From assembly GCA_903958285.1 (NCBI GenBank), contig CAJBSR010000568.1, positions 1 to 22,580 of the forward strand: 22,580 nt of DNA, written 5' to 3'. Each line of letters starts with the position of its first letter. Within the stretch, counting starts at the first letter, position 1. The notes beneath the pieces are model-generated. The model worked only from the letters and a program-made list of their open reading frames with translations. It was not told the DNA's origin and did not search any database. Both the position numbers and the translations under genes were made by a program. The stretch is from an uncultured Sphingomonadales bacterium. Its GTDB lineage: Bacteria; Pseudomonadota; Alphaproteobacteria; Sphingomonadales; Sphingomonadaceae. Positions 1,376-21,652 of this stretch are shown here, in pieces.

Positions 1376-1606
1376 ATGCAAGGCCCCGTCAAACGCTCCG
1401 TCACCATTGCCGGTCACGAAACCTCCATCAGTCTGGAACCGATCTTCTGGACGGCGCTGCGCGATGCGGCCGCCGAAGACGGCCTTCCGGTCAACGCGCT
1501 TGTCGCGCGGATTGATGCGGAGCGGATCGCCTCTGACGATCCGCCCAACCTTGGCAGTGCGATCCGCGTTTGGCTTTATGCGCGGTTGAGCAAGACGCGG
1601 GCCTGA
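1376..1606 (+). CDS. Ribbon-helix-helix domain protein (RHH_4-like)
   Basis: A 76-residue protein with the pattern of the alphaproteobacterial RHH_4 family. A short beta strand (RSVTIAGHETSISLE, about residues 7-21) is followed by two helices, with the typical FWTALRDAAAEDGLPVNALV segment around 24-43 and RVWLYAR near the C-terminus. Members are presumed small DNA-binding proteins, but their targets are unknown. ATG 1376 is supported by AAAGG five bases upstream. The gene follows the inverted repeat at 1274-1360. Its last 31 bases overlap the end of the glutamate dehydrogenase gene on the other strand (1576-1606), so the two genes converge and share coding sequence. Function beyond fold is not inferable. 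Confidence 0.8.
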   Translation: MQGPVKRSVTIAGHETSISLEPIFWTALRDAAAEDGLPVNALVARIDAERIASDDPPNLGSAIRVWLYARLSKTRA

Positions 1607-4600
1607 CCGGCCAACTGTGCCAACATCGCCGTTGATGGTGCCGCCGTCATCCGGGCCCGGTCGATCATGTGCCGGAAGCCCGACACACGCGCCGCATTCG
1701 CCGCTTCCCATTTGGCCACAGCCTCAACCGGCTTCTTGCCGCCATTGCGCGACAGAAAATCAAGCCGCATCGCCTGAAAATCACGTGAGAGCCCTGCCGC
1801 CAATAACCGCTCCCAAGGATCACGCGGGGAGAGCTGCATCGCCGTCCCTTGTGCCCAATCAAGCCCCAAAGATTCACCCAGAGCGGTGAAGGCCTGCGTT
1901 GTCACAAGCACGTCCACACCCGTCCGCTGACTAAGCGCCGCCACACCGATCACGCCATCCAGTTCGGCCAGCCGGACAAGCTGATCGACAATCTTCTTGG
2001 GCGCGCCGGCAGCGTTGAGACGATCCCCAAACGCCCGTGTCTGGCGCGCGGCTTCCGGAGGCAGAAGGTCTTTGAGTGCTCCCGACAGCCGACCGACAGC
2101 GGCACGATAGGCCGCCACCGCCTTATCGTTCGTGCGGTCTGCCACCGAGTTGCGCTGAACATCGGCCATGTGCGCCCGCATTTCCGCCGCCACCTGATCA
2201 AACAGCAACAGCCGCGTCGATTCCGGCATATCGCCCGCTTCGATGGCCGCCCACAGCACCGGGATGTCGAACACCTGTTCGGCCACGACGAACGCTTCCG
2301 CCATGTCGCCGAGCGTGCAGCCTTCTTCCTCCGCCATTTCAAATGGATGGATCAGGCCAAGCCGATTGACGATCCGGTTGGCGAGCTTTGTCGCGATGAT
2401 TTCCCCGCGCAGGCGGTGCCCCTCAATGGCCTTGCGATGCGTGGACTGCATCTGCGGCGGGAAGGCCGCGATAAGATCAGGCAGCGCCGCCTTGTCAGCG
2501 CCAAGCGTCGAATGCTCAATGGCATCCTGCAACGACAGTTTGGCCGTCGCCATCACGACCGCCAGTTCAGGCCGTGTCAGCCCGCGCCCATCGCCCGCCC
2601 GGCGCATCAGCTCCTCATTGGACGCAATGCCTTCCACCGCACGGTCCAGCTTGCCGGACGCTTCAAAGCCTTCGATCAGACGGATGTGCGAGGGCAAGGC
2701 ATCCGCCCCACCGCGTTCGGCGATGGACAGCGCCAACGTCTGGAGACGGTTATCCTCCAGCACCAGATGGGCGACACCCTCTGTCATGCTGGCGAGCAGA
2801 TCGTTGCGCGCGGGCATCTTGAGCTTGCCAGCCGCCACCTCGGCATTGAGCGCGATCTTGATGTTCACTTCATTGTCCGAACAATCGACGCCTGCTGAAT
2901 TGTCGATGAAGTCAGTGTTGATCCGGCCACCCTTGAGCGCAAATGCAATGCGCGCCGCCTGTGTGACGCCAAGGTTGGCGCCTTCACCGATCACCGCGGC
3001 GCGGAGGTCCTCCGCATTGACGCGGTGCGCGTCGTTCGCGCGGTCGCCGACTTCGGAATTGCTCTCGGATCGCGCCTTCACATAGGTCCCAATGCCGCCA
3101 AACCAGATGAGGTCCGCCTGCGCCTTCAGGATGGCCGACAGGATCGCCGAGGGCTCCATCTCATTCTCGGTCACGCCCAGCAGCGCCTTGATCTGCGGTG
3201 TCAGCTTGATTGACTTGGCCGAGCGCGGGAAGACGCCGCCGCCCTTGGAGATCAGCTTGGTGTCATAGTCCGCCCAGCTGGAGCGCGGCAGCTTGAACAT
3301 CCGCGCACGTTCCTTCCAGCTCGCCGCCGGGTCGGGATCGGGATCAAAGAAGATGTGGCGGTGGTCGAACGCCGCCACCAGCTTAATCGCCTTGGACAGG
3401 AGCATTCCATTGCCGAACACGTCGCCCGACATGTCGCCGCAGCCGACAACGCGCACAGGCTGCTTCTGCACATTGATGCCCATTTCGGCGAAGTGGCGGA
3501 CAACCGAAACCCAGCCACCCTTGGCGGTGATGCCCATCGCCTTATGGTCATAGCCAACCGAGCCGCCGCTCGCAAAGGCATCGCCCAGCCAGAAGTTCCG
3601 CTCCAGCGCCAAGGCATTGGCAACATCAGAGAAGGTGGCCGTGCCCTTGTCTGCGGCGACGACGAAATAGGGATCATCCCCGTCATGGATGACGACATCA
3701 GCGGGGTGGACGACCTTACCCTTCACCAGATTATCAGTGATCGACAAAAGCGTGCGGATGAAGATGCGATAGCTTTACGTCCCTTCCGCGAGCCAAGCGT
3801 CACGGTTCGACGGATCGGGCAACAGCTTGGGATAAAAGCCGCCCTTTGCGCCTGTTGGTACAATCACGGCGTTCTTCACGCGTTGCGCCTTCATCAGGCC
3901 CAGAATTTCGGTGCGAAAATCATCCCTGCGGTCCGACCAGCGCAGGCCGCCACGCGCGACCGGTCCGGCACGCAGATGGATGCCCTCCACACGCGGCGAA
4001 TAGACGAACACCTCACGCCAGGGACGCGGATCGGGCAGGCCCGGCACCAGCGCACTATCGAGTTTGAAGGCAATCGCCTCGGCAGCGGCTGGCGCAAACA
4101 TGTTGGTCCGCAGCGTTGCTGAAATGACCGCACGATAGAGCCGCAAGATCCGGTCATCATCGATGGCAGATACGTCGGCCAGAGCGCGTTCAATCGCCGT
4201 ATCAGCGGCATGTGCCGCCTTTTCGGCATTGCCCTTGCGCTTGGGATCATGCCGCGCGTCGAACAGGCTGATGAGGTCCCGTGCGATAGGGGCTGCCCGG
4301 CGCAGGACGTCCGCGACCGTCTGCAAGCCATAAGGCATGCCCGTCTGCCGCAGATAACGGAACAGCGCCCGGAACAGCACGACCGACCGCTGATCAAGCC
4401 CGGCTGAGACGATCAACTGGTTGAACCTGTCATTTTCCGCCGAGCCTTGCAGAACAGCGGCCAAAGCTGTTTCCAGCACGGCGGCACGCTTGACGAGGGC
4501 GTCGCCCTGCCCGTCGGGCAATTGCAGGATGAACCGGTGGATGTGGCCATGCTCGCCCTCCCGTCCAATCAGCGTCGGCAACTCTTCGAGCACGCGGAAG

Positions 4601-6201
4601 CCGAAATTTTCGAGCGCAGGCACCGCATCAGACAGCGCAACCGGGCCAAGGCTGTAAAGCTTCAGGCGCAGCATGTCCGAAGCATCGCCGGCATTGCGAT
4701 ACAGCCGCGCCCCACGTTCTGCTGCCGCGTGTAATTGGGCGAGGCGGCAAATGTCCTGTGCCGCTTCCTCCGCGCCCGCGCCGTTGCGATAGGCAAGGGG
4801 GAAGCCATCGGCATAGCGCAGTGCCAAGCGCGTGGCGTTGCCACCGTCAAGTTTGGCCAGCGCCTCTTCCACAGCACTTCGCCAGCCACGCACCATGGCT
4901 TCCAGTGCGACATTGAGCGCTGGCACATCAGGGAACTGCCCGCCATCCCGGATATCCAGCGTCAGGCGGATGAGCACAATGCCGCTATCGTCTAAGTCCA
5001 TCGCCCAGCTCAGCACCGGCGCATCGCTGGCTTTGGAGATCATCTCGGTGATCGCAATCCGGCGGCTCGTCGACAAATCATCGCGCGGCAACCAGACAAA
5101 GGCATGGAGGTGGCGCGACAGGGGACTGCGCGTGATGGCGATGGCCGGACGTGGCCGGTCCACCAGCGACATGGCAGCCAGCGCCACAGATTCGAGCGCG
5201 TCGTCATCCATGGCGATCAGCAGATCGCGCTGGAGCGAGGTGACGGCATGGGTCAACGTCTTGCCCGCGTGGCCCGTCGGGTCAAAGCCGAGCTTGGTTT
5301 GCAAATGGGTCAGGCGCACGCGCAGCACGGGAATGTCCATCGGCGGCGCGTTCATCGCGGCACTGGTCCACAAGCCGGCGTGGATCGACAGCCCGCCGTC
5401 ACGCGGCACAACCACGAGCTCGACAGGTACGCGCCGGTGCACCGGAGAAATCACATTGGATTTGAGCAGCAAGGGCGCCTCGCCCCCCTCCGCGAACCAG
5501 GCCAAGGCCCGCTTGCGCGCCGATGGAGAAAGAAGATCCTGCCCCAGCGTTGTGGTGATGCCGAGCGCTTCGGAGAGCGAACCGTCCCCTGCATAGAAGC
5601 CATGCCCGAGCTGCGTCAGCTTATTGTCGCCAAACCATTGGAGCAGCGCGCGGCCTTCACTTGGCAAAAGATCAGCATCCGTGGCGAGCCGGGTCCGCAT
5701 GGCCGACCAGTCCTGAACGGCGGCCCGCACTTTGCCGAGCAGATCGGCAATGCCGTCTTCCAACTGACGGCGCACGCGGGCATCGGCCCGCTCAATTTCC
5801 ATGTAGATGATCGATTCATGCGCGCCCGCGCCGCGGGGGCCGATGGAGAGCATCTGGCCCGTTTCATCGCGTTCGACGCCGGCGACAGGGTGCAGCACGC
5901 GGCTGATCGACAGGCCGTGCGCTGCAATTTCGGACGCCACTGAGTCGACCAGAAACGGCATATCATCGTTGACGATGCCGAGGCGCATCTGCCGATGGGC
6001 CGTTTCTGTCGGGATGGTTTCAAGCGCAATGACCGGTGCACCCGATGGCCGGTGGCTCAACAGGGCAAGCAGAAACTCCGCCGCAGACTTGCGCTCGGCG
6101 GGGCCAAAGCGTTCCAGCTCCCCCGGAAGGGCCCCGTCGACAAGTATGTTCTGGAGTGTTTTGAGGAAGCTGGATGAAGTGGATGTGGCGCTCTTCGCCA
6201 T
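1576..6201 (-). pseudogene. gdhB: NAD-dependent glutamate dehydrogenase, interrupted by one in-frame stop
   Basis: This is the large (about 180 kDa class) NAD-specific glutamate dehydrogenase, which oxidises glutamate to 2-oxoglutarate and ammonium. Reading from ATG 6201 there are 808 sense codons, then TAA (3775-3777), then 731 sense codons in the same frame to TAA at 1576-1578. The total of about 1,540 is close to the usual family length. The first part holds the long N-terminal regulatory region and the start of the catalytic domain (GGLRWSDRRDDFRTE, then TGAKGGFYPK). The second holds the NAD-binding fold (VVGCGDMSGDVFGNG) and the C-terminal region. Conserved sequence abuts the stop on both sides (AWLAEGT, stop, SYRIFIR). 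The start is ATG 6201 with GAGAG upstream; a longer frame to 6282 lacks support. Whether it is a true pseudogene, a readthrough gene or a sequencing error cannot be told from one sequence. Confidence 0.85.
3775..3777 (-). other. In-frame TAA inside the glutamate dehydrogenase frame
   Basis: On the minus strand the codons read GAA GGG ACG TAA AGC TAT CGC, that is E-G-T-stop-S-Y-R, in one frame. ATG 6201 and the TTG at 3747 are exact multiples of three apart, so no frameshift is involved. TAA is one substitution from GAA, CAA or AAA. The only downstream alternative start within the next dozen codons is the TTG at 3745-3747, which has no recognisable ribosome binding site. Independent translation of the second half therefore looks unlikely. 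Confidence 0.9.
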
Positions 6202-7785: not shown

Positions 7786-8301
7786 ATGACAACGGACCTC
7801 GTCTTGGCCAAGCGCGGCAGGCACCCTTCCCCGCCCGGCGCCGCTTCGCCCGACGAAGACCGCAACCTGCCCCGCAATGTGGATGGGCTGGATGATGTCA
7901 TCGGGCTCCACGTGGCCCGCGTTTACGCGCTGCTGACCTTCCAACTGGAAAGGGATCTGGCACCGTTGCGGCTGACGCCTAAGGAAGTGTCGTGCCTGTG
8001 GCTCATCAACGCCAATCCCGGCATCCCGCAAGCCGCGCTCGCCCGCTATTTCGGGATTGAGCGGTCCTCGGTCAACGTCGTCATAAAGTCGCTGATCCAG
8101 CGCGAACTGGTGCGCGCGGAGCAAAATCCGGATGACCGTCGGGTCTTCGGACTGTTCCTGTCAGATACCGGTCACGACAAAATGGTGCAGGCCAAAGCCA
8201 TCGTCGCTGAACATGAACGCTGGCTGTGCGAACCCATCTCCAGCGACGCCGTGCAGGACCTGCGCGGCACACTGGAAGCGCTGGCGCGGATCAAGCGCTA
8301 G
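7786..8301 (+). CDS. MarR-family winged-helix transcriptional regulator
   Basis: A 171-residue protein. After a Pro- and charge-rich N-terminal extension, the MarR core starts with LDDVIGLHVARVYALLTFQLERDLAPLRLTPKEVSCLWLI. The recognition region follows (GIPQAALARYFGIERSSVNV, VIKSLIQRELV), and the wing is RAEQNPDDRRVFGLFLSDTG. That order and the DDRR wing are diagnostic of the family, whose members are dimers that usually repress genes for stress, efflux or aromatic metabolism. The ligand and targets are unknown. Two in-frame ATGs exist, 7774 and 7786. The only purine-rich site, AGGA at 7770-7773, touches the first ATG, so I prefer 7786, though either is possible. The divergent neighbour encoding a PAS protein is a plausible target by position only. 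Confidence 0.85.
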   Translation: MTTDLVLAKRGRHPSPPGAASPDEDRNLPRNVDGLDDVIGLHVARVYALLTFQLERDLAPLRLTPKEVSCLWLINANPGIPQAALARYFGIERSSVNVVIKSLIQRELVRAEQNPDDRRVFGLFLSDTGHDKMVQAKAIVAEHERWLCEPISSDAVQDLRGTLEALARIKR

Positions 8302-8341
8302 CCACAGCAGGCTTGGCGGACCCGGCACCTCACCCCGCCAC

Positions 8342-8431
8342 ACCCTCCACCCGTCATCCTGAACTTGGTTCAGGATCCATTTGCATCGCGGCTGTCAGGT
8401 TCGCGCAGAGACGCAAAAGGCGCAGAGAGGG
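8342..8431 (+). repeat. Composite repeat, hairpin-plus-box block (direct copy 1)
   Basis: This 90-base block begins with a perfect 9-bp hairpin (ATCCTGAAC, loop TTG, GTTCAGGAT; 8356-8376). After about 25 bases comes a purine-rich box at 8401-8431 containing CGCAGAGACGCAAAAGGCG. The whole block recurs directly at 9643-9731 with about six mismatches and inverted at about 9911-10000. It lies just after the MarR gene and opens the roughly 400-base gap before the lipoprotein gene. Confidence 0.85.
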
Positions 8432-8464
8432 TTTTTGCAGTCCCGTCCGCCACACCCAACACTC

Positions 8465-8560
8465 GTCATCCTGAACTTGTTTCAGGATAACGGCTCCGTG
8501 ACCGCATATCGGGCGGATAAGAGGCTCCACGCGGTTATGCTGAAACAAGTTCAGCATGAC
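8465..8560. repeat. REPIN-like element, copy A (two inverted palindromes)
   Basis: A 96-base element with inverted termini of 27 bases (8465-8491 and 8534-8560) that differ at two positions. Each terminus is itself a hairpin: ATCCTGAA/TTCAGGAT at the left and ATGCTGAA/TTCAGCAT at the right. The two differences between termini are the paired C-G to G-C positions of the stem, so hairpin pairing is kept. The layout matches REPINs, two REP palindromes in opposite orientation that are mobilised in trans by RAYT transposases. An inverted, slightly longer copy lies at 9773-9889. The remaining bases to 8702 show no gene; part is the 5' leader of the lipoprotein gene. Confidence 0.8.
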
Positions 8561-8702
8561 GAAGTGTGTGGGGGCACCCTCATTTCCCCCCACCCCGTGA
8601 CCGCCATCACAGCGCTTTGTTCAGACTTTGGCGTTATCTTGGAACCCGCCGCTGCGGGGTGCGGCGAGTGGGGAGCGTTGGGGACAGATGACGGGACATG
8701 TT

Positions 8703-9634: not shown

Positions 9635-9642
9635 GGCAACAC

Positions 9643-9731
9643 CCCTCCACCCGTCATCCTGAACTTGGTTCAGGATCCATTGGCATCAAGGCCGTCAGGT
9701 TCGCGCAGAGACGCAAAGGGCGCAGAGAGGG
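9643..9731 (+). repeat. Composite repeat, hairpin-plus-box block (direct copy 2)
   Basis: This matches 8342-8431 in the same orientation over about 90 bases with roughly six mismatches. It includes the perfect 9-bp hairpin at 9656-9676 and the box with CGCAGAGACGCAAAGGGCG. It begins eight bases after the stop of the truncated hydrolase gene. A run of ten G (9739-9748) follows it. Together with copy 1 it brackets the lipoprotein/hydrolase pair. Confidence 0.85.
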
Positions 9732-9772
9732 CTGAGGTGGGGGGGGGGCTTGTGCCCAGACTCTCCCTCCTC

Positions 9773-9889
9773 GTCATGCTGAACTTGTTTCAGCATAACC
9801 GGGTGGAGCCTCTTATCGCCTGATATGCGGTCACGGAGCCGTTATCCTGGAGCCGAAGGCGTGCAGAACACAAACAAGTTCAGGATGAC
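9773..9889. repeat. REPIN-like element, copy B (inverted relative to copy A, with 22-base insertion)
   Basis: The element is the reverse complement of 8465-8560 with few changes. The left terminus (9773-9799) matches exactly, and the interior has one deleted base and two or three substitutions. The right terminus carries 22 extra bases (9850-9871) inside its hairpin, between ATCCTG and AAACAAG. The insertion shortens that hairpin stem from eight to six pairs and enlarges its loop. This is why the element is 117 rather than 96 bases. Confidence 0.8.
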
Positions 9890-9910
9890 GATGGTGGGTT
9901 GGACGGTCGG

Positions 9911-10000
9911 AACTGCAAAAGCCCTCTCCGCGTCCTTTGCGTCTCTGCGCGAACCCATAAACTGCGGTGTTCATGGATGCTGAAACAAGGTCAGCATGAC
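9911..10000 (-). repeat. Composite repeat, box-plus-hairpin block (inverted copy)
   Basis: Bases 9911-9955 are the reverse complement of the box region around 8411-8440, with a few changes. Bases 9977-9997 form a hairpin (ATGCTGA/TCAGCAT) followed by GAC as in the other palindromes. Together with 9643-9731 it makes a large imperfect inverted repeat around the REPIN-like copy B. A degenerate trace of the box may continue at 10061-10078. The rest of the gap to 10110 shows no gene. Confidence 0.7.
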
Positions 10001-10110
10001 GAGGAGGGAGATGTGGTCAAGCCAACAGCGCGCGCCGCGCCGAAGCGACGTGAGAACTCGCTGCGCCCTCTGCGCGAATCCCTAAACTGGACTGCGACTC
10101 TAAAAAGACG

Positions 10111-21571: not shown

Positions 21572-21652
21572 CCGCTCAGGCTGAGCTTGTCGAAGCCTCG
21601 TCCTTCTCCCTTGAAAACAAGAACGGCGCTTCGACAGGCTCAGCGCAAACGG
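21572..21652. repeat. Inverted repeat, family 2 (copy 2), just before thiD
   Basis: Arms 21581-21595 and 21629-21643 are complementary over 15 bases with one G-U pair in RNA. The core is CTGAGCTTGTCGAAG and CTTCGACAGGCTCAG. The outer bases of the right arm also resemble the copy at 1274-1360 (GCAAACGG). The repeat ends seven bases before the thiD start codon and occupies the place where a ribosome site would be. Confidence 0.8.

Follow-up and report, generated by a model that had tools for sequence, protein, structure and literature searches.

The window, which is the whole stretch of DNA analysed here, is 22,580 bases long and constitutes one complete contig (C567) of a sphingomonad assembly of 2.98 Mb in 593 contigs, with a completeness of 91.1% and a contamination of 4.29%; its fragmentation suggests a metagenomic origin. 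On the minus strand, running from 6201 to 1576, it encodes an NAD-glutamate dehydrogenase of the large 180-kDa class. The frame starts with an ATG at 6201 and closes with a final stop at 1578-1576, with 1,541 codons before that final stop if codon 809 is counted. Codon 809 (minus strand, 3777-3775) is TAA. It is the sole internal stop in the 1,541 codons, and beyond it the frame stays intact for 732 more. A sequence-only reading of this DNA had reported exactly one in-frame TAA at 3775-3777 in an otherwise intact frame, flanked by AWLAEGT before and SYRIFIR after the stop, and both the stop and its flanks read that way here. Since a full-length homologue of 1,538 residues is 97% identical to the window gene from end to end, a chance open frame is excluded. 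The features of the gene are collected in Table 1. Its 3' end (1576, minus strand) overlaps a small RHH_4-domain gene (1376-1606, plus strand) tail to tail by 31 bases; this small protein is found at 86-100% identity in four same-genus genomes.

Table 1. Features of the interrupted NAD-glutamate dehydrogenase gene, in window coordinates.
Feature	Position	Strand	Basis
First half, 808 residues: ACT1-3, helical motifs 1-3, initial part of the catalytic domain	3778..6201	-	PF21075-PF21079, PF21073, PF05088 (2-143)
PTGAKGGF motif, last residue 789, 20 codons ahead of the stop	3835..3858	-	Position computed
Internal TAA stop codon, codon 809	3775..3777	-	Frame reading; whole-genome searches also report "1 TAA" in the gene
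TTG, earliest candidate in-frame restart after the stop, without a ribosome site	3745..3747	-	Start-codon scan
VVGCGDMSGDVFGNGM, glycine-rich stretch after the stop	3403..3450	-	Position computed
Second half, 732 residues and final stop: remaining, coenzyme-binding part of the catalytic domain, then C-terminal helical domain	1576..3774	-	PF05088 (146-496), PF21074

When the two halves are joined, the Pfam matches follow the order of L-GDH180, the class to which Caulobacter GdhZ presumably also belongs: ACT1-3, helical motifs 1-3, the catalytic domain and the C-terminal helical domain. The stop divides the catalytic domain itself, such that PF05088 is matched at profile positions 2-143 before it and 146-496 after it. 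We take the PTGAKGGF motif to be the one that carries the catalytic (active-site) lysine, and the glycine-rich stretch VVGCGDMSGDVFGNGM to be part of the coenzyme-binding fold. One solved relative was found by sequence, PDB 7a1d, and an intact relative of the window gene (P0121) aligns with it over residues 61-1532 of 1538. This structure is the L-GDH180 of Mycobacterium smegmatis (PMC8175468, in part). It has the same domains in the same order as the window halves taken together, except that in the window a stop separates the first part of the catalytic domain from the second. An uninterrupted chain of about 1,550 residues, as in L-GDH180, is encoded by G010, G009, G001, G012 and G003, all relatives of the window genome, but not by the window gene with its TAA at codon 809. 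In the solved enzyme, subdomain I holds most of the glutamate-binding residues and subdomain II binds the dinucleotide, according to the portion of PMC8175468 consulted. The earlier placement of the stop between the glutamate-binding and NAD-binding parts agrees with these subdomains and with the Pfam split of PF05088. Judging from the domain boundaries, a protein ending at residue 808 would be without the coenzyme site and the C-terminal domain, and we infer that such a product is inactive.

The stop is private to the window gene among the relatives examined. The gene is present in 10 of 13 same-genus genomes, the window's own included. The sequence-only reading had called for a comparison of this codon in close relatives, and it could be read directly in eight of the nine other same-genus genes, where it is Glu in seven and Gln in one (G004). 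The ninth gene, in G003, was not matched by the codon-reading script, but its frame is free of internal stops. A stop at the site of codon 809 is absent from all nine same-genus relatives that carry the gene, eight with the codon read and the ninth stop-free. The nearest relative, G010, is 93.4% identical to the window over 8,920 bases of DNA and is one base away from the window in codon 809. Among the homologous proteins listed, nearly all have E at this position (114 of 117), with Q in 2 and D in 1; these are 117 of the 120 proteins listed, with P0003, P0004 and P0006 left out.

A family-wide search matched the gene in 379 of 397 genomes. Among the 150 matches listed, two rows bear a stop, counted by eye: the window gene and G391, which has one TGA. 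The G391 stop was rejected as a sign of a second broken gene; it lies outside the aligned region and was dropped as probably terminal because it is absent from aligned residues 7-1536. Among the matches listed, therefore, the window gene is the sole one with a confirmed internal stop. Three public homologues (P0001, P0042 and P0106) go out of frame in this region, no more than about 20 codons away and each at a different point, with P0001 doing so about 11 codons before the stop position. These are probably indel errors favoured by the search ranking rather than a hotspot.

To date the stop, the changes between the window and G010 were put on branches with two outgroups. Downstream of the stop, 89 synonymous and 7 nonsynonymous codon changes fall on the window branch, and 56 and 5 on the G010 branch. 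Before the stop, the corresponding counts are 70 and 4 for the window and 55 and 8 for G010. The pairwise dN/dS between the two is 0.028 after the stop and 0.042 before it. Relaxed constraint after the stop, as might be sought in a recent pseudogene, was not found on the window branch, with its 89 synonymous to 7 nonsynonymous changes. Had constraint on the second half been lacking over the full length of the branch, one would expect some 262 nonsynonymous changes, compared with the 7 observed (upper 95% bound 13.15). The unconstrained share of the branch is then at most about 2% when G010-like constraint is allowed for and 5% when it is not. Therefore, the stop is either very young or absent from the organism. 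The sequence-only reading had argued for recency on the ground that so large a gene would decay after loss, and that argument holds in numbers. Unrelaxed constraint is what one expects of a very young nonsense change, but the absence of decay fits a sequence error equally well.

The likeliest reading, which we put at about an even chance, is that the TAA is a nonsense mutation of very recent origin in the population sampled. By this mechanism, one base change would have turned a sense codon 809 into TAA, translation would end after residue 808, before the coenzyme-binding half, and no working enzyme would result. Recent nonsense pseudogenes of bacteria typically have one stop in an otherwise intact frame. 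The window gene is like them in having a single base change that is private among the relatives examined, and in belonging to a gene that is absent in other family members. It differs from them in that constraint is not yet relaxed, and in that it is known from assembly sequence alone.

The main rival is that the TAA is a consensus error, produced by a low-coverage or strain-mixed assembly, and that the gene is intact in the living organism. We hold this to be nearly as likely as the nonsense allele, at somewhat under an even chance; the weight given to each of the two is a matter of judgement. The TAA is known from the consensus of one fragmented assembly of 593 contigs, a setting where spurious stops are a known risk. 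According to the portion of PMC11017572 consulted, many pseudogenes called from internal stops in public bacterial assemblies are spurious, arising from low coverage or poor reads, and high coverage is required. The window stop resembles such spurious draft-assembly stops in being an isolated base-level stop in a fragmented assembly. It is one base from the nearest relative in a gene with no other damage. Another fragmented assembly has an irregularity in the same gene: in G008 (L129, G008:C162, around 7994-8006) the gene lies in two frames, with residues 1-1396 in one and 1396-1538 in the other. This apparent frameshift near the gene end may also be an error.

Against a consensus error stands the quality of the rest of the assembly, as far as it was sampled. 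We screened 53 contigs of the window's assembly (334,582 bases) against 80 stretches of G010 (1,422,971 bases). A coding filter based on synonymous changes and overlap reduced 285 candidate frames with a match to 88, comprising 31,011 codons. Five of the 88 G010 frames were flagged, and an internal stop was confirmed in the window gene alone. L188 and L148 were rejected as internal stops, in that the stop precedes the conserved domain and a later start codon. L212 was rejected as antisense to an intact 462-residue frame. L206, which has no Pfam match, was rejected as antisense to a 587-residue frame of contig L167. Stops confined to the first 15% of a frame were set aside by rule as start choice (L187, L214). 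In the reverse comparison, none of 85 frames was flagged, and four were set aside with stops in the first 15% only. An earlier screen without the coding filter had flagged 11 of 59 and 7 of 57 frames as candidates. Thus, internal stops are not generally in excess among the frames sampled from the assembly, small as the sample is (n = 88), and in this the window's assembly differs from those with the spurious stops described in the consulted part of PMC11017572.

Two further points bear on an error at this place. First, over the whole gene the private changes number 11 nonsynonymous and 159 synonymous for the window and 13 and 111 for G010. Since the private nonsynonymous changes of the window gene are not in excess of those of G010, the local error rate cannot be high. 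Second, the stop is 3.8 kb inside the 22.6 kb contig, away from the edge. Because the sampled assembly is not generally poor in its bases, the error reading is lowered, while still allowing for one wrong base.

Other readings would have the stop be real and the enzyme nevertheless present in some form. One is that some full-length enzyme is still produced, either by readthrough of the stop or with the help of a suppressor tRNA. The strong constraint on the downstream half is consistent with this, and the tRNA set is incomplete (29 genes found, with several lacking and Glu among them), which leaves some room for a suppressor. However, there is no tRNA with anticodon TTA, that is, no ochre suppressor, among those 29, and the nine same-genus relatives with the gene have no stop at the site. 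TAA is the least leaky bacterial stop. It also serves as an ordinary terminator in this genome, ending 24 of the 85 coding-filtered frames; in 22 of these the position is also a stop in the relative, the exceptions being the dehydrogenase site and an antisense frame. A search with the frame read through (residues 560-1060) found full-length relatives, the best of them 98% identical over those residues; it was made on clustered proteins and as such cannot show the codon in the cluster members. Altogether, we consider readthrough or suppression very unlikely.

A second such reading is that two chains are made, the second from a restart after the stop. The constraint on both halves is in its favour. 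The stop, however, cuts inside the catalytic domain, and the start signals are poor. The sequence-only reading had singled out a TTG as the only nearby restart and described it as lacking a ribosome site. It is indeed the tenth codon after the stop, the nearest start, and without a Shine-Dalgarno match, but it is not the sole nearby one, since a GTG follows 17 codons after the stop, likewise without a ribosome site. The scan found 12 in-frame ATG, GTG or TTG codons in the 199 codons after the stop. Exact matches of 3-4 bases to AGGAGG are upstream of only two of the 12, at 133 and 159 codons after the stop, and within 130 codons after the stop there is no exact Shine-Dalgarno match of at least 3 bases near an in-frame start. 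Nor does any homologue of the first half end at codon 809 in the best 120 of 427. P0117 ends two residues before the stop position and is labelled partial, and P0001 is the one that goes out of frame. Because the list of 427 was clustered at 90%, a full-length cluster could conceal another record with this stop. We give a second chain from a restart scarcely any credence.

The sequence-only reading had left four options for the stop, namely a very recent nonsense change, a strain-specific readthrough, a two-part protein and a sequence error. The first and last survive. Readthrough and a split enzyme are poorly supported because there is no TTA tRNA among the 29 found, TAA is an ordinary terminator, there is no nearby restart signal, and there is no homologue ending there among those compared. 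Taking them together, we regard it as highly improbable that the stop is real and tolerated with the enzyme still made, either by readthrough or by two chains assembling within the catalytic domain. If this were true, a large glutamate dehydrogenase would here be starting to split in two.

It is also conceivable that the stop is in a spare copy, with an intact copy elsewhere in the genome. With the assembly at 91.1% completeness, such a copy may have escaped it. A search of the genome with the second half gave one match. In the search with a full-length relative, contig C169 was rejected as a second copy, being marginal (E 7e-4, 16.9 bits, 30% identity over 124 residues). The DNA flanking the dehydrogenase is collinear with the locus in G010 and G009, each of which has one match, and a spare copy is accordingly extremely unlikely. 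Elsewhere in the window, short palindromic repeats of the CGTCATCCTGAACTTG type, possibly REP-like elements, are clustered at 8335-8562 and 9635-10011 in direct and inverted copies, and they sit in the stretch that marks the end of the DNA alignments to G010 and G009. Another element, with arms like CTGAGCCTGTCGAAG and CTTCGACAAGCTCAG, occurs as two distant inverted copies at 1273-1361 and 21572-21652, and is presumably a repeat type of sphingomonads.

If the nonsense allele is real, its product would be inactive, and the loss would have to be tolerated. That the loss would be tolerable is argued by related genomes that do without the gene and by an NADP-type glutamate dehydrogenase encoded in the same genome. 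The gene had no match in 18 of the 397 family genomes. These include two same-genus genomes that are 94% and 96% complete, as well as all sampled members of the genera g25 (4), g36 (3) and g61 (4). The NADP-specific enzyme (GdhA, NCBIfam NF006929) catalyzes the same type of reaction with the other coenzyme and is short (model 445 residues); it is not the gene that bears the stop. In the window's genome it is on contig C187, where 400 residues are present and open and the start is cut by the contig edge.

The distribution of the two enzymes differs between the genus and the family. None of the 13 same-genus genomes (own included, with the NADP type counted at E below 1e-50) is missing both, and this pattern of gene content suggests that the NADP enzyme may compensate within the genus. 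Across the wider family such compensation is not supported. With matches better than 1e-40 counted, 8 of the 19 genomes that lack the NAD enzyme (the 18 and G002) carry the NADP-type gene, versus 14 of 21 that have the NAD enzyme, and both enzymes are absent in 11 of the 19. By gene content, then, the NAD enzyme is dispensable to the gene-less family genomes, though not by way of one fixed substitute. G036, G120, G180 and G225 in g25, and G047, G129 and G187 in g36, have no match to either NAD-type or short ELFV-type dehydrogenases. In Caulobacter, gdhZ can be deleted in a mutant background, according to the part of PMC12421884 consulted. Among the papers that a literature search listed, none is on such a case in Sphingomonas, going by the titles.

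Apart from its private stop, which is either very young or an artefact, the gene is ordinary for its family, and nothing in the findings points to a new mechanism. Neither outcome would surprise a specialist. If the stop is an error, it is a reminder that reads are required before a lone internal stop in a draft assembly is annotated as a lost gene. If the stop is real, it would show the loss of a large catabolic enzyme at its very beginning, in a lineage with relatives whose genomes already lack it.
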